Shown here: in pieces, positions 1 through 8,481 of the stretch | Layout of the letters: each line of letters starts with the position of its first letter | Position numbering within the stretch: position 1 is the stretch's first letter | From: Polynucleobacter sp. AP-Sving-400A-A2 | GTDB taxonomy: Bacteria; Pseudomonadota; Gammaproteobacteria; Burkholderiales; Burkholderiaceae | Direction of reading: 5' to 3' | DNA length: 64,000 bases | Assembly: GCF_018688155.1 (NCBI RefSeq) | Contig: NZ_CP061312.1 | Coordinates: 1,302,001 to 1,366,000 of the forward strand | Position numbers and translations under genes: made by a program | The notes under the pieces: generated by a model | Told to the model about the DNA's origin: nothing | Seen by the model: only the letters and a program-made list of their open reading frames with translations | Databases searched by the model: none

Positions 1-542
1 AAGATTCCAAACGGAACACCCTCACTCCAACTACCCATCATGAGAGGGCGAATAAATCCCAATACGAGATAGAGCCAAATTGCTGCCAAGAAACCCCAGG
101 CAATGTGCGTTCCCATACCCAAAGCAATAGCTCGGCGATACGTTCTTGCCCACCACAATAAAATCGAGACAGTCAAGAAGAAGCCAGCCATCATCCACCA
201 ACCACCCTCATTAAGGGGCATGAATAAAGACAAGCCATGCTTTGGAAGTGGTGGATCTAAAGAGAGCCAGAATAATTGGCGCACGAATTCAATTGGGTTC
301 CAATTCACAGAGGCCAACATATTCCAACCCATAATCTGAATTGCAATAATGCCAAAAAATAAAGAAGCAACGCCTAAACCACCTAAGTAAATAGGTCCAA
401 GCTGCGCATTCCCCAAACGCCCTAGCAAATGAAACATAGTTGGCGTGCCAAAACGCTCTCGTTCATCACGAGGATCTATAGCTACCCCATGATGCGGCGG
501 AGCAGTTACTTGAACTTGAGTAAATAGATTTTGATATTCCAT
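1..542 (-). CDS. pufM: Photosynthetic reaction centre M subunit, partial (C-terminus beyond left edge)
   Basis: This is the M polypeptide of the type II reaction centre. With PufL it binds the bacteriochlorophyll special pair, bacteriopheophytins, quinones and iron in the inner membrane. The visible protein starts [12 protein letters not shown] and continues with PHHGVAID and LGPIYLGG, typical of PufM N-termini, followed by the first membrane helices. About 180 residues are present, against roughly 310-330 in the family, because the gene runs off the window. The ATG at 542-540 lies 14 bases after the pufL stop and has a good AGAGGA ribosome site, so it is the last visible gene of the puf operon. 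Whether pufC follows cannot be seen. Identification is secure. Confidence 0.96.
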
Positions 543-556
543 AATTTAAATTCCTC

Positions 557-1381
557 TTAACGCCAAATTGGCAAGTTCAACCACCAACCCCACCACTCCG
601 GCCAACCACGAGACCAGAATGGGCCGCTAATCACAATACAAACCGCGCTCCAAAAAACCGCTGCTAAGGCTAGAAATAATCCAACTCGGTGAATTCCTAA
701 GGTACCAACTGAATAACCAATCGTGTCTCTAAAGAAGGTATCTTCATGTTCAGGCGTTTTAACAAACTCGCCTTTTTGTGGATTTGTAGACGACAAAACT
801 AAACCGCCGTGTAATACCAAAGCAAAGGTGGTGGTGAAGAATAAAGTCACCGCAATCATATGCGCTGGGTTGTAATGAAAATGGAGGTACTGATAGCCTG
901 TATTGGAGACCCAGTCCAAGTGACTCAAGATGCCGTAAGGAAAGCCATGACCCCATGCACCTAATAGTATTGGCCTAACGATAACCAAAGTGAAATAAGC
1001 AAATACCGCCATTAAGTAGGCGTAGGGAACATGAAGTCCCATACCGAGCTTTCGACAAATCTCCATTTCTCGCAAGGCCCACGAAAGGAATGCACCTAAA
1101 GCACAAACCGTAATCAGCTGCCACAGCCCGCCTTCTAGCAAGGGGGCAAAACCAAGTCCATAACTAATGTCCGGTGGCGCGATATTGATCTGCCAAGGGT
1201 TCCATGTTGGACCCTGTGAAGCACCCCACAAAATCAGTGCGGTACCTAAAAAAGAAAATAAAACGGTGGTAACACCAAAAAATCCGACGTAAAACGGCCC
1301 CACCCAAAAATCGAATAAGTCCCCACCGACTAATGTACCGCCTCGAACGCGATACTTTCTTTCAAAACTAAGCATGGCCAT
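557..1381 (-). CDS. pufL: Photosynthetic reaction centre L subunit
   Basis: This is the L polypeptide of the purple-bacterial reaction centre and carries the active electron-transfer branch with PufM. The 274-residue length is normal for the family. It starts [15 protein letters not shown], a typical PufL N-terminus, and has five hydrophobic helices. The conserved histidines are in place: H154 and H169 near the pigments, H174 in NPAHM as special-pair ligand, and H191 and H231 as likely iron ligands, each one position later than in Rhodobacter. It lies between pufA and pufM. The 85-base pufA-pufL gap carries a stem-loop (1408-1447) that may set the LH1 to reaction-centre ratio. Nothing appears missing. 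Confidence 0.98.
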
Positions 1382-1407
1382 TTTTTATGCTCTCCGATGA
1401 ATGGATA

Positions 1408-1447
1408 AATAGGGTTGAGCTAAGAAGCGATTTAACCTAACCCTATT
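1408..1447 (-). promoter_or_regulatory. Intercistronic stem-loop between pufA and pufL
   Basis: A perfect 9-bp inverted repeat, aatagggtt at 1408-1416 and aaccctatt at 1439-1447, encloses a 22-base loop in the pufA-pufL gap. No U-run follows, so it does not look like a simple terminator. In Rhodobacter, hairpins at this position protect the pufBA transcript from 3' decay and make it more abundant than pufLM. The same role is inferred here from position and structure only. Confidence 0.6.
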
Positions 1448-1466
1448 CACCATTTTTTTATACAAA

Positions 1467-1673
1467 TTACTTTGCTGCTGGAACTGATGGTGGCATTGCA
1501 GAACCTGATTTAGCTTCCATCGCCTTAAACTGGGCTTGGCTTAAACCATCCAACCAGTTGAAACGAACACTACTTAGCAAAATCAAGTGAATCATTGCTG
1601 CAAGACCAAACAGGAAAACACCTTGAACAACCATTGATCGCAATGGATCATAAAGTTTCCAAATTCTCCACAT
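1467..1673 (-). CDS. pufA: Light-harvesting 1 alpha polypeptide
   Basis: This is the LH1 antenna alpha chain, a 68-residue single-span protein of the inner membrane. It starts [13 protein letters not shown], the hallmark of LH1 alpha chains. One hydrophobic helix follows, with H29 (AAMIHLILL) as the bacteriochlorophyll ligand, then FNWLDG and a proline/alanine-rich tail that is likely periplasmic. The ATG at 1673 has a strong AGGAGA site. That site overlaps the stop codon region of the upstream 74-residue gene, so translation of the two is probably coupled. Normally pufA follows pufB directly; here an extra gene separates them. Identification is secure. Confidence 0.97.
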
Positions 1674-1682
1674 AATCTTCTC

Positions 1683-1907
1683 CTAATTTAAATAAGACAT
1701 AAAACCATAAACTGCCGACCTCGTACCATCGATAAGCGATTTTTCTTCAGCTCCAGGAAGCCAAGAACTCCACTTCGTTGGCAAAATCTGGGTAAATAAA
1801 GAAATAACAAAACACACTATGAAACATAAAATAAAAATAAGATTAAAAGTGATTGAGTCTTCTCTAATCATATTTTTTTCTTTGCTAATAACGTGATCCA
1901 TTTTCAT
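1683..1907 (-). CDS. Unrecognised single-span membrane protein inserted between pufB and pufA
   Basis: I do not recognise this family. The 74-residue protein has a charged N-terminus (residues 1-18), one strongly hydrophobic segment (about 21-42, FNLIFILCFIVCFVISLF), then PTKWSSWLPGAEEKS and a mildly amphipathic tail ending MSYLN. It looks real. The ATG at 1907 has an AGGGGA site 5 bases upstream, it starts 27 bases after the pufB stop, and its TAG stop lies immediately before the GAGA of the pufA ribosome site. Base composition is very AT-rich (about 22% GC in the 60 bases from 1801). Size and location recall the small puf-operon proteins PufQ, PufX and protein-W/-U, but no sequence match to them is claimed. 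An antenna- or assembly-associated role is inference from position. Confidence 0.72.
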   Translation of the reverse strand: MKMDHVISKEKNMIREDSITFNLIFILCFIVCFVISLFTQILPTKWSSWLPGAEEKSLIDGTRSAVYGFMSYLN

Positions 1908-1934
1908 ATCATTCCCCTAAGATTTATTCCGATT

Positions 1935-2087
1935 TCAATGGAACCAAGGACGCCATGCCCAAACCAAAATATGGGCAACTACAGCTATAGAAGTAAAACC
2001 AACTAAACCTTGGATATACAACTGGTGAAACTCCTTGGCTTCGTCATCAGTAAGGCCAGATATTGAACCTGTTCTGTGATCGCTCAT
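1935..2087 (-). CDS. pufB: Light-harvesting 1 beta polypeptide
   Basis: This is the LH1 antenna beta chain, 50 residues, pairing with PufA in the ring around the reaction centre. Read directly from the sequence: it starts [20 protein letters not shown], the conserved cytoplasmic region with H21. A single helix follows with H39 in [10 protein letters not shown] as bacteriochlorophyll ligand, and the protein ends RPWFH. The ATG at 2087-2085 has a near-perfect AAGGAGGT ribosome site, the strongest in the puf operon, as expected for an abundant antenna protein. It lies 142 bases downstream of bchZ; that gap contains two hairpins. Identification is secure. Confidence 0.96.
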
Positions 2088-2127
2088 AACCAATTACCTC
2101 CTTCAAAAATAGCCTTGCGGCCGTTAC

Positions 2128-2204
2128 CGCGCTTAACCCGCGCGACATGGGCTGTAGCGTACGGCATGCCACATTCCGTTTTCAACAAACCAATTGATTT
2201 GTTG
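2128..2204 (-). promoter_or_regulatory. Two hairpins in the bchZ-pufB gap
   Basis: The 142-base gap between bchZ and pufB holds two inverted repeats. One has arms caacaaa (2183-2189) and tttgttg (2198-2204) and can extend inward by one C-G pair and a wobble. The other has arms cgcgc (2128-2132) and gcgcg (2140-2144) with a 7-base loop. Neither is followed by a U-run. They could be mRNA processing or 5'-stabilising structures for the pufBA message. No CrtJ/PpsR-type palindrome or clear promoter was found in this gap, so transcription may partly read through from bchCXYZ. Confidence 0.4.
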
Positions 2205-2229
2205 TAATTGACTTTTGTTGAGGAAGAAC

Positions 2230-3687
2230 TCATGCCTCGACCTCCTCAGTAATTTCTTTGCAAGAAGACTTCACTCTGGCAGCTGTAATTCTCTCTTCGC
2301 CAGCCTTCTCTGCATCTTGCTCTACACGATCGCGCATCTCTTTAGCAGCAGAAATCTGGATTAAAACCGGTCTAGTTTTAATAAAGTCAGCCACTAGTTT
2401 TTGAGCATCTTGATCCCAAGGCAAGGCATTGGAACGATAAGTACGCGTTAATGAGGAATCGACTTTATCCATATCGGTACCCAATGGCAGGATATAAAAG
2501 AGTGCATCGAACAAACCATTACAAAATTCTTGAATGATGTATGTCGCACCGGCATAACCCATAAATGGGGTGCCGGTATGACGGCGAATAATCGCACCAG
2601 GGAAAGACGAAGGAATGTAAGAGGCTTTACTACCAGTTTCAGCCAGATACATTCTTTCGTTGTAGCTGCCAAACATTACTAGCGGTGGCTTCTCTTTGGT
2701 GAGCTTGCGAACCTCTTGATTATTGGTTTTCTCTCCAGGCTTTCTAGGAACTGCAAAGCTGCAAGGCAGACCCATCTCATCTGATAAGAAATGACGAATA
2801 CCTCGGGTATAAGTTTCATTAGCAACCACTGCATAACTGGCTGTACTGAAAAAATCTTGAGTCACTGAACGCCATAAGTCCCAAATTGGCTTAATGGTGG
2901 TGTGTTTTTCACGCTCAATAAATGGCTCAGGATCTAAGCCCAATAATTCACCTAGTTTGCGCAAGAATTGAGTAGTGCTATGCAAACCCAGTGGAGCTTG
3001 CAAATAGGGACGCTCTAGAGCTTCGCAAAGCATACGACCAAATTCACGATACATACAGATATTCACGTCTGCATTCACTAAATTCTCAACTTCAGCTAAG
3101 TGAGAACCTAATGGGAAGACCATATTGATATCAGCACCAATACCTTCAACTAGACGGCGAATCTCGGCTAGATCACTAGGCATATTGAACGTACCGTAGC
3201 AGGGTCCAATAATATTCACGCGGGGCTTTTCGCCTTCGGCTCTTGGTTTACGTTCTGGAATCTTGCGAGTGCCGTATTCACTCCATAACCAATACATTGC
3301 GCGATTAGCACATTGCCATTGATCTTCATCGATGGTTCTTGGTAAGAAACGGGCAATATTCATACCCTCAGGAGTAACGCCGCCGCCAATCATTTCTGCA
3401 ATAGAGCCGGTTACGACTACAGCCGGAAGATCAGGATCTAAAGTGGCATGGGCACGTTTCATTGCGCCCTCAGTGCCTTCACGACCTAACTGCTCTTCCT
3501 CTAGACCGGTAACTACAATCGGCAACTCATGTGGAGGTAGCGCATCGGTATAGTGCAGGACTGAAGTTACGGGTAAGTTTTCACAGCCAACTGGTCCATC
3601 AATAACTACCTGCAATCCTTTGATAGCAGTAAACACATATACTGCACCCCAATATCCACCAGCACGATCATGATCGATGACAAACAT
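2230..3687 (-). CDS. bchZ: Chlorophyllide a reductase subunit Z
   Basis: BchZ is one of the two catalytic, nitrogenase MoFe-like subunits of chlorophyllide a oxidoreductase. This enzyme reduces ring B of chlorophyllide on the way to bacteriochlorophyll a. The 485-residue length is typical. It opens [16 protein letters not shown], with conserved [11 protein letters not shown] near residue 33 (a cluster cysteine) and [13 protein letters not shown] near residue 91. Its ATG overlaps the bchY stop by one base (TAATG), so the two subunits are translationally coupled, as expected for a fixed-stoichiometry complex. It is the last gene of bchCXYZ before the puf genes, the classical purple-bacterial order. 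Confidence 0.97.
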
Positions 3688-5225
3688 TACATCATCTCCT
3701 CAGCTTTGCGCTTCTTCAATTTTTTCTCAAGCTTGCGACGGACCTCGGCCTTGAACTCTGGGTGATCTTGTGGAACATTCTCCCAAACCCCTGATTTATA
3801 ACCAGATCCAACATCGCCAAAGAAAGCCTTCATCTCATCAAAGCGCGCTTGATTACCAATCGCAGCATTGATCACTTGCGCTAGCGATCCAGCGCCCGCA
3901 GGACCCATCAACGGTCTTGCTGAAATCAAATTCGTAAAGTAAAGCGAAGGAATGGAGGCTTGCTTAGCTGCTTGAACTACTGGAGTAGTTCCAATTGCTA
4001 AGTCAGGCTTGAACTCTTTCATTGCAGCTAAATCTTGCTCTAAAGAGGCGCGGAATTGAACGTGAACGCCCTTTGCCTCTAACCATTCGCGATCTTCATC
4101 ACTCCAAGGAGTGCGTGGGCATGCTGAGCCAACGTAACGTACATCAGCGCCACTCTCAATCAGCAAACGTGCCACGATAAGCTCTGAACCTTCGTAACCA
4201 CTTAAGGTAATGCGTCCTTTAATTGGAGCAGCAGCAAGCACACCCTTAATTGCTGGGAGGATACGGTTTTGTGCAGCTGCAATTAAATCTTGTGGAGTAT
4301 TTGTGGACTTGCCAATAGCTTCCAACCAACGAGCAGTACCCTCGTAACCTACTGGGGCAGAGCCAACAATGGAGCGTCCTGCCGCTTCAAACTCACGGAT
4401 ACACGAAGTATAAAAAGGATGTAATGCAGCCACCGTTACACAATCAAGCGCCTGATACATTTCACGCCATTCGCGAGTAGGTACTGAAGCGCCGACTGCT
4501 AAACCCATCGGCTCAATCATCATGCCAATACCAACTGGATCAGCGGGGAAAATTTCACCTAATAAAGTAATCGTTGGCTTGCTTGAGCGACCAGCGCGAG
4601 GTGCTTGGACTGGACCAGACATCGCTTCATTACGAGCGTAATTGAGCATTGCGCCAGCCAATACATCCTTTGCCTCAGCATGAGTTGGCACGCCGAAACC
4701 TGGCACATCAATGCCGATGATACGTACACCATTAATTTCTTTTGGTAACAATTGCAGTGGCACACCACTAGCAGTTGGTACGCATAAATTAATGATGACG
4801 ATAGCGTCATACTTTTCTGGATCAGCTTCTTGATAGACGGAATCACGAATATCTTCAAACAACTTACCAGTAACCAATGTCTCTGAATTAAATGGCACAT
4901 AACCAACGCTTCGGCGTGCGCCATAAAAATGGGAAGTAAAAGTGAGGCCATAAACGCAGCATGCAGAGCCAGAAAGAATAGTGGCAGTTCTGCGCATTCT
5001 CAACCCTACACGTAATGCACCAAATGCAGGACACATACTTTGCGGCTGATCATGTGGTCCCTTGGGATAGTCTTTTGCATACTGCTGCAATGTTTCTGAC
5101 TTACCCGCAGCCTTTGCCGCAGCCAGCATCTCTGCTTCACCAGAATGACAACCTAAGCCATCTCCTAGCGTCGGATCAGTTTTTAACTTTTCCTCTGGGG
5201 TAATGGGAATAATTGTTTTATTCAT
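3687..5225 (-). CDS. bchY: Chlorophyllide a reductase subunit Y
   Basis: BchY is the second MoFe-like subunit of chlorophyllide a oxidoreductase; with BchZ it holds the Fe-S cluster and substrate. At 512 residues it is of normal size. Visible landmarks are the N-terminal [21 protein letters not shown] near residue 63 and [10 protein letters not shown] near residue 85 (cysteines in cluster-binding positions), and a C-terminal region rich in lysine and arginine. It lies 24 bases after bchX and overlaps bchZ by one base. The operon order bchC-X-Y-Z-pufB is conserved in many purple bacteria, which supports the call. Confidence 0.97.
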
Positions 5226-5249
5226 AACGGCGTATTGCTCTCTATTTCT

Positions 5250-6257
5250 TTAGGCTTGGTCGTAGATAACTTCGAGTGTTTTCTTAATGACTTCGTCTTT
5301 ACCCATCATGTCCTTAACGGTAGCGGGCTTCAAAACTACATCGCGACCAGTAATTTCTGAGGAGAACAAGCCCAACAGTTCGTCTTGAGTTAAAGGCTTT
5401 GGACGTACTGGCGGAGCTTCTGAAACATTAGTAGCGAGCTCTTCGAATAGCGGAGCCCACTGTGTGCCAGGCTGGCCAATAATTTCATAACTAGCACTCT
5501 TGCGACGAATATCTTCGTTCGCAGGGATAGCCGCTAAAACTGGAATACCAGCCTTCTCAGCAAAAGCCTGAGCTTCACCGGTTAAGTCATCTTTATTGAT
5601 CACCATGCCTGCTACACCAACGTTACCGCCTAATTTACGGAAGTACTCCACCGCTGAACAAACGTTGTTCGCAACATAAAGAGATTGCAAATCATTACTA
5701 GCAACCACGATCACTTTTTGGCACATGTCTCGAGCGATCGGCAAACCAAAGCCGCCGCAAACTACGTCACCCAAAAAGTCGAGAAGTACATAGTCAAATC
5801 CCCAATCATGGAAGCCTAATTTTTCTAATGTTTCGAAGCCATGAATAATGCCGCGACCACCGCATCCACGTCCCACCTCTGGACCGCCTAGCTCCATCGC
5901 AAATACACCATCACGAATAAAGCAAACATCACCAATCGAAACAGACTCGCCGGCTAATTTTTTCTTAGAGGAGGTTTCAATAATGGTTGGGCAAGCTTTA
6001 CCGCCGAACAAGAGTGAAGTGGTATCACTCTTTGGATCGCATCCAATCAATAAAACTTTCTTGCCTTGTTGAGCCATCATGTATGACAGGTTGGCAAGGG
6101 TAAAGCTCTTACCAATACCGCCCTTGCCATAAATAGCAATGATTTGGGTTTCTTTAGTCACTGGACCAGTGGAAACTGGATCGGGCTCAATAGCAGCCTC
6201 CTTTTTTAAGTCCATAAACTGAATTGTTGCTGTTGCTGGGATGTCTGATGAACTCAT
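5250..6257 (-). CDS. bchX: Chlorophyllide a reductase iron protein (subunit X)
   Basis: BchX is the NifH-like ATPase that passes electrons to BchYZ. It contains the P-loop YGKGGIGKS, the GRGCGGRGI cluster cysteine and the [13 protein letters not shown] switch region with a second cluster cysteine, all standard for dimeric [4Fe-4S] NifH-family proteins. I place the start at the ATG at 6257 (MSSSDIPATATIQ), giving 335 residues. This ATG overlaps the bchC stop as ATGA and has a GGAGA site 8 bases upstream. A longer in-frame extension to 6293 would lie inside bchC and is unlikely. The resemblance to bchL in this window reflects common ancestry. Confidence 0.96.
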   Translation of the reverse strand: MSSSDIPATATIQFMDLKKEAAIEPDPVSTGPVTKETQIIAIYGKGGIGKSFTLANLSYMMAQQGKKVLLIGCDPKSDTTSLLFGGKACPTIIETSSKKKLAGESVSIGDVCFIRDGVFAMELGGPEVGRGCGGRGIIHGFETLEKLGFHDWGFDYVLLDFLGDVVCGGFGLPIARDMCQKVIVVASNDLQSLYVANNVCSAVEYFRKLGGNVGVAGMVINKDDLTGEAQAFAEKAGIPVLAAIPANEDIRRKSASYEIIGQPGTQWAPLFEELATNVSEAPPVRPKPLTQDELLGLFSSEITGRDVVLKPATVKDMMGKDEVIKKTLEVIYDQA

Positions 6258-7201
6258 TGCAGATTTCTCCAATCTAGAACCATTTTTAAACAATCAACAT
6301 TATTGAAAGCCGTGTGATAGGCGGCATTTGCATCATTCGGTGAAGAACGATGCGTAATCAAACCATCCAAACTTAATTTTCCGGACTCAACTAAATCTTT
6401 TATTGCCACTAAATCTCCAGGCGCCCACTGCGCCGCAATGCGAATGCGTGCTTCTCGCATAAAGGCCTGAGGGAATGAGAAAGAAATCGTGTCATAAAAT
6501 CCTGCCAAAACAATTTCTCCGCCAGGAGCAAGGCAGCTGATCAGCGTATCAACTAAGCGGGCATCACCACTGACATCCACAATCGTTTTATATTTTTTAA
6601 CTTGATCATCTTTGGGATCTATTGCGTCGTAACCTACGGCACCTTCACGGCGCCCTGCATTGGTCTCCCACACTACCGGGCGCTTACCCTTAGCAACTGC
6701 AATCCGTGCAATTAAGCGGCCTAATACGCCATGACCAATAATCAAATCTGGCTGCTCTTGTCCAGGACCAGAAGTCACGTGGTGGCCAGTCGCAGCTAAA
6801 GCAAAAAGGATCGCTTCTTCACCCAAATGATCTTGAATAGCAATTACGCGATTACTATCCACGACCACCCGCGATGCCGCGCCACCAAACAAGCCTTTAA
6901 TCTCTCCGTAGCACTTTGCTCCAGGAACAAATACTCTTTGACCGATCTTTAAATTAGAATCTGCACCCGCTTCCACTACTCTGCCTACAGACTCATAACC
7001 AGGCACCAATGGATAGCCCATGCCAGGAAAATTCGGCATTTTTCCAGTCCACAATAATTTTTCTGTACCAGTGCTGATTCCGCTCCACTCCATATCAACC
7101 AAGACATCAATGGGGGTCATGGGGGTTAATTCAAGATCGGTAAGAGCAACACTTTCTGGTCTTTCCAGAACGATCGCTCTTGTTTGATATTGACTGGTCA
7201 T
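6254..7201 (-). CDS. bchC: Bacteriochlorophyllide a dehydrogenase BchC
   Basis: BchC oxidises the C3 hydroxyethyl group of 3-hydroxyethyl bacteriochlorophyllide a, giving the acetyl group found in bacteriochlorophyll a. The 315-residue protein has a medium-chain dehydrogenase (GroES-like) N-terminus with WSGISTGTEKLLWTG and PLVPGYESVGRV, followed by a nucleotide-binding half (LIIGHGVLGRLIA near residue 154). It heads bchC-X-Y-Z-puf and overlaps bchX by 4 bases. A perfect inverted repeat of the CrtJ/PpsR type lies 31-56 bases upstream of its start, so repression by that regulator is likely. No strong ribosome site is evident before the ATG. Confidence 0.96.
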   Translation of the reverse strand: MTSQYQTRAIVLERPESVALTDLELTPMTPIDVLVDMEWSGISTGTEKLLWTGKMPNFPGMGYPLVPGYESVGRVVEAGADSNLKIGQRVFVPGAKCYGEIKGLFGGAASRVVVDSNRVIAIQDHLGEEAILFALAATGHHVTSGPGQEQPDLIIGHGVLGRLIARIAVAKGKRPVVWETNAGRREGAVGYDAIDPKDDQVKKYKTIVDVSGDARLVDTLISCLAPGGEIVLAGFYDTISFSFPQAFMREARIRIAAQWAPGDLVAIKDLVESGKLSLDGLITHRSSPNDANAAYHTAFNNVDCLKMVLDWRNLQ

Positions 7202-7231
7202 TTCTGGCTAAGGATTCTTTTTTTTGGATTA

Positions 7232-7257
7232 AAAGTGTACAAAAATATTTACACTTT
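7232..7257. promoter_or_regulatory. CrtJ/PpsR-type operator upstream of bchC
   Basis: The core TGT-N12-ACA spans 7236-7253. The arms extend to perfect 7-bp repeats, aaagtgt (7232-7238) and acacttt (7251-7257). This matches the TGTN12ACA consensus of the CrtJ/PpsR aerobic repressor of photosynthesis genes. It lies 31 bases before the bchC ATG, in the 155-164 base gap between crtF and bchC. The repressor gene is not in the window, so the identity of the binder is inferred. Confidence 0.75.
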
Positions 7258-7365
7258 GTTTTTAACCTGTATTTACCAATTTGTCATCTAGGGGTTTTCT
7301 CTACTAACCCAATTAATTTGAAAAAACCTGTACGGATAGGTCTTTTACAAGGTTTATCAGCTAAT

Positions 7366-8481
7366 TTAGCCAGGTTTATTGCACTGCAATATTTGAGCAT
7401 TTAACGGCATATAAGAATTTAGTAGTCTGATACCCGTAAAGCCAGCTTGACGTAATAAACCACTAATTTCTGCTTCAGTTCTAGGTCTTCCCCTGCCCAT
7501 TGCTAGGAGATAAAAGCCAAAATAAGCATGTCCCATTGCCTCAAATCCCTTGGTCTCGGCCATAGGCTCTGCAAGCAATAAAGTCCCACCTGGATTGAGG
7601 GCGTCAAACACATTGGCAAGCAACTGCTTTACTCGAGCGTCATCATGATCAAAGATGACTCGAACAAGGGTTGCCAGATCACAACCTTTAGGTAGAGGGT
7701 CTTGAAAAAAGTTTCCGCCTACGGCCTGCGCTCTATTCGAGAGACCAATTTCCTTAAAGTGGGCATTAGAGAGCTCTGCCACGCCAGGAATATCAAATAA
7801 TTTAAAAGTAAGGTGGGGGTAGCGCTTAGCCAATCTTTTAATAAATACACCTTGGCCGCCACCGATGTCTAAAACAATGTCGTGCTTAGCCATTGGATAG
7901 GCATCGATAATCTCATCCGTCACCAGTGATTGGGTATGAGCCATCAATCTAGAGTAGTCAGCAACTGTTTCTGCGGATAAATTTTCTGGTGCGGCGCCCT
8001 GCTCAGGCGTGATGTAGGACCAGTACTCATTTAGAGCAACAGAACTTTTATCGCCCTGTAACAAAGCTATTGGATCGGACAAGTCGCGATAAAAATCAGC
8101 ATGGTGTTTGACCATATCCAGAATGGCAACATTGCCGACTAATGGAGCGCTTTTCATACTGAGGGCATAACGATCATCGCTACGCTTGACCAGCAACTGG
8201 ATAGCAACTGCTGCATCTAGTAAACGCCTTAAGCCGGCCGGCTTTAAGGATACTTGTTTTTGAAGATCGTTAAAGCTCACGGCACCCTTTGCCAAGATGT
8301 CAAAAAGATTAACTTGGGTGCAAGCAAGCAGAACTTGGGTGTAGACAAAGCCTGCCATTAAATCAAAGATATCGGAGGCTTGCCTTCTGACTATCCAGCG
8401 AGTGAGTGGAAAACGGGTAGCCCAGCGTTGAAAGCTCGGTGAGGCAATTAGACGATTACGCCAATCGAAGAAACGTTCCAT
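7366..8481 (-). CDS. crtF: Hydroxyneurosporene / carotenoid O-methyltransferase
   Basis: CrtF adds the methoxy group to C-1 hydroxylated carotenoids in the spheroidene or spirilloxanthin branch. The protein has an N-terminal winged-helix dimerisation region (FDLMAGFVYTQVLL, then LAKGAVSFNDLQKQ) and a C-terminal S-adenosylmethionine domain with DIVLDIGGGQGVF near residue 207 and LPKGCDLATLVRV, as in plant-type O-methyltransferases. I chose the ATG at 8481 (MERFFDWRNRLIA, 371 residues); a TTG three codons earlier is possible. No clear ribosome site precedes either. It follows crtE by 29-38 bases, in the bchH-crtE-crtF arrangement. Position in the photosynthesis cluster makes CrtF much more likely than other methyltransferases. 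Confidence 0.92.
   Translation of the reverse strand: MERFFDWRNRLIASPSFQRWATRFPLTRWIVRRQASDIFDLMAGFVYTQVLLACTQVNLFDILAKGAVSFNDLQKQVSLKPAGLRRLLDAAVAIQLLVKRSDDRYALSMKSAPLVGNVAILDMVKHHADFYRDLSDPIALLQGDKSSVALNEYWSYITPEQGAAPENLSAETVADYSRLMAHTQSLVTDEIIDAYPMAKHDIVLDIGGGQGVFIKRLAKRYPHLTFKLFDIPGVAELSNAHFKEIGLSNRAQAVGGNFFQDPLPKGCDLATLVRVIFDHDDARVKQLLANVFDALNPGGTLLLAEPMAETKGFEAMGHAYFGFYLLAMGRGRPRTEAEISGLLRQAGFTGIRLLNSYMPLNAQILQCNKPG

Follow-up and report, generated by a model that had tools for sequence, protein, structure and literature searches.

ORF74, a probable histidine-less paralogue of the LH1 beta chain encoded between pufB and pufA in phototrophic Burkholderiales

The puf locus and the frame between pufB and pufA

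The window analysed here is a stretch of 64,000 nucleotides from Polynucleobacter sp. AP-Sving-400A-A2 (contig NZ_CP061312.1, positions 1,302,001 to 1,366,000). Its minus strand carries the gene series bchX-bchY-bchZ-pufB-ORF74-pufA-pufL-pufM (Table 1). pufM exceeds the window and is followed, beyond it, by a pufC-like cytochrome gene and then by crtI- and crtB-like genes. The genes bchX, bchY, pufC, crtI and crtB were named by inspection of their translations and not by a family search. The pufB product scored 82.7 bits with NF040862 (cut-off 61) and 46.5 bits with PF00556. No pufQ or PufQ-like gene was found between bchZ and pufB in the window when the frames of the stretch were scanned with the profiles of PufQ and of the X proteins described below.

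A leader element (GCGGTAACGGCCGCAAGGC) lies about 40 bases upstream of pufB and could form a GCGG/CCGC hairpin. With up to four substitutions, it recurred in 42 of the 107 distinct pufB leaders compared (many from near relatives) and in none of 107 shuffled leaders. An Rfam scan of window positions 1-8000, which include the element, gave no family at the gathering threshold.

Table 1. Features of the puf locus in the window
Feature	Position	Strand	Basis or remark
ORF74	1683-1907	minus	74-codon open frame; single-span, probable histidine-less LH1 beta paralogue
ORF74 start ATG	1905-1907	minus	sequence
ORF74 Shine-Dalgarno-like AGGGGA	1913-1918	minus	sequence and anti-SD pairing energy
ORF74 hydrophobic core, residues 24-42	1782-1838	minus	Kyte-Doolittle scan
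ORF74 Gln40 codon, at the column of the bacteriochlorophyll-ligand histidine of LH1 beta	1788-1790	minus	alignment
ORF74 C-terminal extension, residues 50-74, with VYxFMS motif	1686-1760	minus	alignment
ORF74 stop / pufA Shine-Dalgarno overlap	1680-1685	minus	TAG 1683-1685 and AGGAG 1680-1684, two bases common
pufB, LH1 beta, short form, 50 aa, ligand histidine kept	1935-2087	minus	NF040862, PF00556
pufB stop	1935-1937	minus	27 bases before the ORF74 ATG
pufA, LH1 alpha	1467-1673	minus	NF040861, 61.1 bits, cut-off 35
pufL, reaction-centre L subunit	557-1381	minus	PF00124 match at G000:C1:1302563-1303294
bchZ	2230-3687	minus	open frames
Leader element, 19 bases, conserved, ahead of pufB	2112-2130	minus	leader comparison

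A first-pass annotation of this DNA had placed a 74-residue single-span membrane protein between pufB and pufA, with no strand named. The frame was confirmed on the minus strand, and its single hydrophobic span has a mean Kyte-Doolittle value of 2.8. A ribosome site with a start 27 bases past pufB, as well as a stop overlapping the ribosome site of pufA, had also been proposed; the AGGGGA ahead of the ATG, the spacing and the overlap of two bases bear these out. The gene had further been called far more AT-rich than pufL. This is correct for total G+C (0.316 against 0.464). The third-position G+C of 0.307, however, resembles that of pufA (0.333) and pufB (0.353). Much of the AT-richness is therefore due to the amino-acid content, and a foreign origin, to which AT-richness might point, was ruled out on the same ground.

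The protein is under purifying selection. In 150 pairs from 18 near relatives, dN/dS was 0.126 for ORF74, against 0.061 for pufB, 0.098 for pufA and 0.019 for pufL. Frame and length are kept in 26 aligned Polynucleobacter proteins, down to 32% identity with the protein of the window. A chance frame or a pseudogene was ruled out by this selection together with the wide occurrence described below. Synonymous divergence among near relatives over window positions 557-2087 was 0.26 for pufB, 0.34 for ORF74, 0.31 for pufA and 0.79 for pufL. The low synonymous change across the first three genes is consistent with strong expression or with an RNA constraint over all three. Over 71 loci the mean anti-SD pairing energy was -7.4 for both ORF74 and pufA and -9.2 for pufB; the pairing of ORF74 was weaker than that of pufB in 48 of these loci and weaker than that of pufA in 38. 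The earlier suggestion of a small membrane protein encoded in step with the antenna is supported, and the gene is conserved as well.

Translation in step could also be the whole purpose of the frame. It might act mainly as an RNA spacer that sets the beta:alpha ratio by coupled translation, the peptide being incidental. The overlap of the stop with the ribosome site of pufA would suit such a spacer, as would the gap of 9-22 bases between ORF74 and pufA in the 71 loci. However, selection acts on the protein itself and its residues are conserved across the order, and we regard the spacer interpretation as very improbable.

One Polynucleobacter genome (G004; locus L078, about 2968-3190) has a frame-broken copy of ORF74, with the frames of pufB, pufA and pufL open. 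Since ORF74 varies more than PufB and this copy is broken, the gene may be dispensable, unless the break is a sequencing error.

Occurrence of ORF74 in Polynucleobacter and Burkholderiales

The reaction-centre L/M family PF00124 was found above its cut-off in 79 of 186 Polynucleobacter genomes; an 80th (G112) matched below the cut-off. ORF74 was detected at E ≤ 1.9e-9 in 72 of the 186 genomes, all of them among the 79 phototrophic ones. In the seven phototrophic genomes without a match (G019, G148, G172, G173, G176, G179 and G181) the contig stops at the site or short of it, as judged from the distance from pufL. The order pufB, ORF74, pufA was seen on one stretch in 63 of the 72 genomes, the broken copy of G004 included. 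A single neighbour of ORF74 is visible in five, namely pufB in G161 and G165 and pufA in G029, G159 and G160, and gene order was left out for G122, G147, G150 and G175.

The 74-residue sequence alone found seven proteins; the ORF74 profile found 91 protein clusters at E ≤ 1. A profile of 35 ORF74 sequences (A3), used for the order-wide and PDB searches, matched 54 of 399 Burkholderiales genomes at E ≤ 0.01. Forty-six of these are among the 48 genomes in which a second search of the same draw detected PF00124, the genome of the window included. Seven matches (G467, G543, G713, G725, G769, G778 and G786; best E 8.7e-4 or weaker) were taken as chance and dropped. One genome (G712) carries the genes without matching PF00124 and lies outside the 48.

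A short pufB followed by ORF74 was found in 38 of the 48 phototrophic Burkholderiales, in one of which (G495) the contig ends before pufA. Eight are without ORF74. Five of them (G473, G606, G620, G692 and G721) have a single long-tailed beta with the histidine, and three, which form one genus (f23; G512, G629 and G659), have a short pufB and a different protein of 75-77 residues in the slot between bchZ and pufB. In two (G588 and G737) the contigs end too early. Named holders of ORF74 beyond Polynucleobacter include Piscinibacterium candidicorallinum and the beta-proteobacterium AAP99. A family-wide search gave matches in 5 of 299 genomes, four of them Polynucleobacter; a match in G204 (E 0.003, within a frame of 329 residues) was taken as chance.

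These counts bear on the earlier view that pufB and pufA are adjacent in known operons, which is right for the Rhodobacterales records examined but not for those 38 phototrophs, where the suggested synteny check found pufB followed by ORF74. Nor is ORF74 peculiar to the genome of the window. The first-pass annotation had named homologues annotated as a known puf protein in many genomes as grounds against its own view. This applies by half: homologues do occur in many genomes, 11 of the 91 clusters are labelled LH1 beta, and a gene of like size and place is transcribed in Roseateles; none with a tested function was seen. The label, 'light-harvesting complex 1 beta chain', comes from JGI (P0003, P0010, P0011, P0053 and others), and it would class a protein without the ligand histidine as antenna.

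For one species, an ORF74 has already been published together with its co-transcription. In Roseateles depolymerans, pufA, pufB and ORF74 are co-transcribed in the major 1-kb puf transcript; they rank first among the loci with reduced transcript in a sigma-factor mutant, in which 0.71, 1.09 and 2.34% is left, respectively (PMC10037100). By locus number, the Roseateles gene (RD2015_RS05155) sits between pufB (RS05150) and pufA (RS05160), like the gene of the window, to which it is matched by place and size ('74' in the name) and not by sequence. The available part of PMC10037100 does not describe its function, relatives or structure. Neither ORF74 as a beta paralogue nor a link between PufQ and beta was found in the literature searched, mostly without subscription papers and hence weak evidence, and the available parts of PMC3176799 and PMC12654162 contain neither.

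Relation to the LH1 beta chain and the ligand histidine

Judged by sequence and profile comparison, ORF74 is very probably a paralogue of the LH1 beta chain, closest to the long-tailed betas. The first-pass annotation had seen no convincing relatives; at the profile level, beta paralogy emerges, along with a weaker link to PufQ through proteins of the pufQ slot. The protein of the window gave no match with the LHC or pufB models at E ≤ 1, and its link to beta runs via relatives. Ten relatives outside the near group were compared with the NCBIfam pufB model NF040862: four scored 33.9-41.2 bits (best E 1.2e-10), two scored 12-14 bits, and four had no match. When five further locus-typed proteins were put to the family models, two long betas scored above the cut-off, two ORF74 proteins gave 19.6 and 15.4 bits, and the X protein of f23 gave no match. 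The curated cut-offs were reached by no ORF74 tested, the best relatives scoring 20.7 bits with PF00556 (cut-off 23) and 41.2 bits with NF040862 (cut-off 61). BLASTP aligned P0060 with the PufB of the window without gaps over 48 residues (E 8e-12, 29% identity), and Gln stands where PufB has its His. In the genome of the window, pufB came second among the matches of the ORF74 profile (E 1.3e-4).

In hhalign comparisons, ORF74 and the long betas aligned nearly end to end, with scores of 131.4 for the other genera (73 columns) and 92.7 for Polynucleobacter (69 columns). The corresponding scores with the short betas were 49.6 and 33.4. Addition of five more long betas from other taxa gave 125.6 and 86.0, and those five alone gave 85.2 and 57.1. 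The long betas had been sorted by their histidine pattern and not by ORF74 score, although some were reached through ORF74 searches. As controls we used 16 PufL/PufM alignment windows from the same loci and seven reversed families. Their maximum was 16.2 with the ORF74 profiles and 18.5 overall (Chromatiaceae X proteins against reversed long beta). Scores of 86-131 against controls of at most 16.2 argue for common descent of ORF74 and LH1 beta. Relations to the alpha chain (12.9) and to PufX (9.7 and 14.9 with three PufX sequences) were rejected, these scores being at control level.

In a tree built from 87 sequences over 74 columns, 33 of 34 sampled ORF74 tips fell into one clade (SH-aLRT 100, UFBoot 100), beside the long betas (82/83). 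Since the tree is short and midpoint-rooted, we take it as a hint. A search of the PDB with A3 gave 42 distinct sequences at E ≤ 10, all of them LH alpha or beta chains except one cytochrome oxidase subunit, and none was a chain named protein-W, -Y, -Z or -U. A solved structure containing ORF74 was also considered and rejected: among the matches listed (best five of each search), the PDB alignments were with histidine-bearing beta chains, and a literature search on 8z81 gave no paper.

According to PMC10214105, the alpha and beta chains of LH1 align on a histidine that is invariant. In one alignment, the ligand column holds His in all 64 short betas and all five long betas, and in none of 102 ORF74 strings. 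Its occupants in the 42 strings of other genera are Gln (32), Thr (5), Ser (2), Gly, Leu and Ile. In the 60 Polynucleobacter strings, five of which are shortened copies of another string, they are Val (21), Gln (15), Leu (9), Ile (8), Lys (4), Phe, Tyr and Ala. The 17 Chromatiaceae X proteins have Arg there. Of the EFH motif, which precedes the helix on the cytoplasmic side, the His survives in 2 of the 42 and none of the 60 ORF74 strings. As read from the alignment, ORF74 has lost the ligand histidine for antenna bacteriochlorophyll and has kept a predicted beta-like membrane helix and the C-terminal extension of 25 residues.

Other parts of the beta chain are better preserved. In WRPW, 41/42 strings of other genera and 35/60 of Polynucleobacter retain the first Trp, and 41/42 and 59/60 the second. 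The Trp that bonds the pigment in known betas is presumably the first of these, six residues after the histidine. Since this first Trp is mostly kept, some pigment contact by ORF74 would be possible. Ser at column 58 and the tail VYxFMS are strongly conserved. Within the tail, Val, Tyr and Ser are present in 41/42 and 60/60 strings, Phe in 29/42 and 60/60, and Met in 39/42 and 60/60. The tail aligns with that of the long betas, which end for example in GVKAAVNSFMPY and GIKAAVYNVVPY; the extension is found in ORF74 and in long-tailed LH1 beta and not in the adjacent short PufB. ORF74 and long-tailed beta are alike in a profile alignment over 64-75 columns, in the WRxW region and in the extension, whereas ORF74 differs by the absent ligand histidine, the largely lost EFH and scores below the curated cut-offs. 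In G495 (L230:2709-3011) the ORF74 tail is near a long-beta tail (KAANSVIPLMFM), and this protein is possibly an intermediate.

Possible roles of ORF74

In some lineages that lack ORF74, histidine and extension are united in a single LH1 beta; PufB at those ORF74 loci that were read is short and has the histidine only. It looks as if one long beta had been split over two genes, PufB and ORF74. Such a simple account leaves unexplained the 5 of 48 Burkholderiales with a long beta only, and several alpha-proteobacteria in which a long beta is accompanied by X.

We consider ORF74 to be a candidate pigment-free, beta-like accessory of LH1 with a structural role, and we put the probability of this reading at roughly 0.45. 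The C-terminus of LH1 beta is periplasmic. ORF74 would be co-produced with PufB and PufA at a high level and would insert like a beta chain, with its N-terminus inside and its extension in the periplasm. While LH1 is being built, one or a few copies of this pigment-free, beta-like subunit would dock next to an alpha chain, and its extension would provide the periplasmic contact formerly made by each long beta. The LH1 ring would be ended or loosened at this unit, which might aid assembly and quinone exit, in the manner of PufX and protein-W elsewhere. For these two, one accessory helix can hold the LH1 ring open (PMC10214105). They are small single-span LH1 accessories and serve as a working analogy for the proposed role, although no sequence relation to ORF74 was seen. 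The LH1 gamma and gamma-like chains, to which ORF74 may likewise be compared by analogy, are also extra small LH1 helices, but differ from it in size and gene place.

The gamma chains of Blastochloris and Rhodopila are the model for a different reading, in which each alpha-beta unit would contain one ORF74 as a stoichiometric LH1 polypeptide, lying between the betas outside the ring. The transcript shared with pufB and pufA in Roseateles (PMC10037100) would be in keeping with this, as would a ribosome site that on average is as strong as that of pufA. The gamma-like chain of Rhodopila, however, has 22 residues and the opposite orientation, and its gene lies far from puf (PMC9640540). In addition, identities as low as 32% in the genus alignment, and a dN/dS above those of the other three puf genes compared, would be surprising for a densely packed repeat unit. 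We consider a stoichiometric subunit improbable.

The main rival, in our view rather unlikely, is that ORF74 is the Burkholderiales stand-in for PufQ, that is, a histidine-less peptide derived from the antenna that does not remain in LH1. As such it could restrain ferrochelatase and so couple the making of the antenna to the supply of bacteriochlorophyll, or could hand pigment to the nascent antenna. In Rhodobacter sphaeroides, PufQ is reported to bind ferrochelatase and to steer porphyrin flux, and the question has been raised of how this branch point is handled in bacteria that lack PufQ (PMC5725709); Bauer and Marrs (1988), cited in that paper, compared PufQ with reaction-centre helices. 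ORF74 shares with PufQ the size of about 74 residues and the single span, both of which speak for the stand-in, and also the puf operon and a hydrophobic core without histidine (seven PufQ compared). The two are weakly linked in profiles through X. They are unlike in gene place, in the match to PF05398, in tree position and in tail sequence.

By X we denote PufQ-like proteins of 74-95 residues, unannotated or 'hypothetical', in the slot between bchZ and pufB. The survey beyond the order covered 10 phototrophs among 150 genomes of the phylum, with eight loci read, and plasmid loci. PufQ occupies the slot in Rhodobacterales plasmids and in locus L263. The arrangement bchZ-X-pufB was found in Candidatus Thiodictyon, in Methylobacterium aquaticum, in four further genomes and in one Burkholderiales genus (f23), and X occurs together with a long beta in Methylobacterium and four further genomes. 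The X loci are L241:1960-2184, L186:3459-3818, L256:2796-3221, L257, L258, L262 and L231-L233. The slot holds neither PufQ nor X in Novosphingobium capsulatum, nor in three genomes that belong to one family; a long beta is present in one of the latter. The absence of both counts against a PufQ stand-in.

Several profile comparisons favour the stand-in. Pooled X proteins scored 36.9 with PufQ over 72 columns, almost end to end, and 63.5 with long beta, again almost end to end; the scores of X with ORF74 were 77.5 and 57.4, and those of the controls at most 15.2. One of nine X proteins, that of L256, was matched by three profiles, at 34 bits for long beta, 33 bits for ORF74 and 19 bits for PufQ. 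On these sequence comparisons the X proteins weakly bridge PufQ and long beta. Moreover, X and PufQ appear to exclude ORF74: a scan with both profiles made X or PufQ the best match in 11 loci, none of which is an ORF74 locus, and ORF74 was found with X or PufQ in none of the loci scanned. This exclusivity may, however, stem from few evolutionary events.

The direct comparisons are less favourable to the stand-in. ORF74 scored only 20.8-27.7 with PufQ (controls 16.2 at most), and PufQ with long beta stayed at control level (13.6-14.2). Against single X groups, PufQ scored 33.6 with the alpha-proteobacterial proteins (26 columns), 25.8 with those of Chromatiaceae and, at control level, 15.5 with those of f23. 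Eight of nine X proteins were without a PufQ profile match at E ≤ 0.01. PF05398, the Pfam PufQ family, had no match in ORF74 at E ≤ 1, and two X proteins (L241 and L232) had none at E ≤ 10. It matched nowhere in 149 genomes of the family of G853 either, a result of little weight since the control also matched nowhere. The tree groups PufQ with the alpha-proteobacterial and f23 X proteins (80.6/94) and places the Chromatiaceae X proteins on the side of beta and ORF74 (94.9/100). The gene slot of ORF74, after pufB, is unlike that of pufQ. From slot, tree and group scores, ORF74 would not be simply a relocated PufQ, and if it does the work of PufQ it would have been recruited separately. Orientation would also disagree, as the C-terminus of PufQ is predicted to be cytoplasmic (PMC5725709), on the opposite side from the beta tail.

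A wider generalisation, which we hold to be doubtful, is that PufQ, X and ORF74 are all LH1 beta chains minus the pigment ligand, forming a pseudo-antenna family that ties pigment supply to assembly. If this were true, PufQ would gain an antenna ancestry, and it would become understandable how some purple bacteria 'without PufQ' get by. ORF74 would then be a fresh derivative of long beta in Burkholderiales, leaving a short beta that binds pigment and a pigment-free beta that bears the tail. Whether as the structural accessory that we prefer or as a PufQ stand-in, the histidine-less beta-like chain of 38 of the 48 phototrophs would represent either an unrecognised RC-LH1 subunit or a missing counterpart of PufQ. 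The three arrangements within one order, that is, short beta with ORF74, long beta alone and a PufQ-like protein upstream, would amount to a natural experiment on the beta tail. Three of the ORF74 loci (L223, L226 and L227) have a highly divergent pufA (MWRYWRIVDPRKAIILTG...) and a highly divergent pufB.
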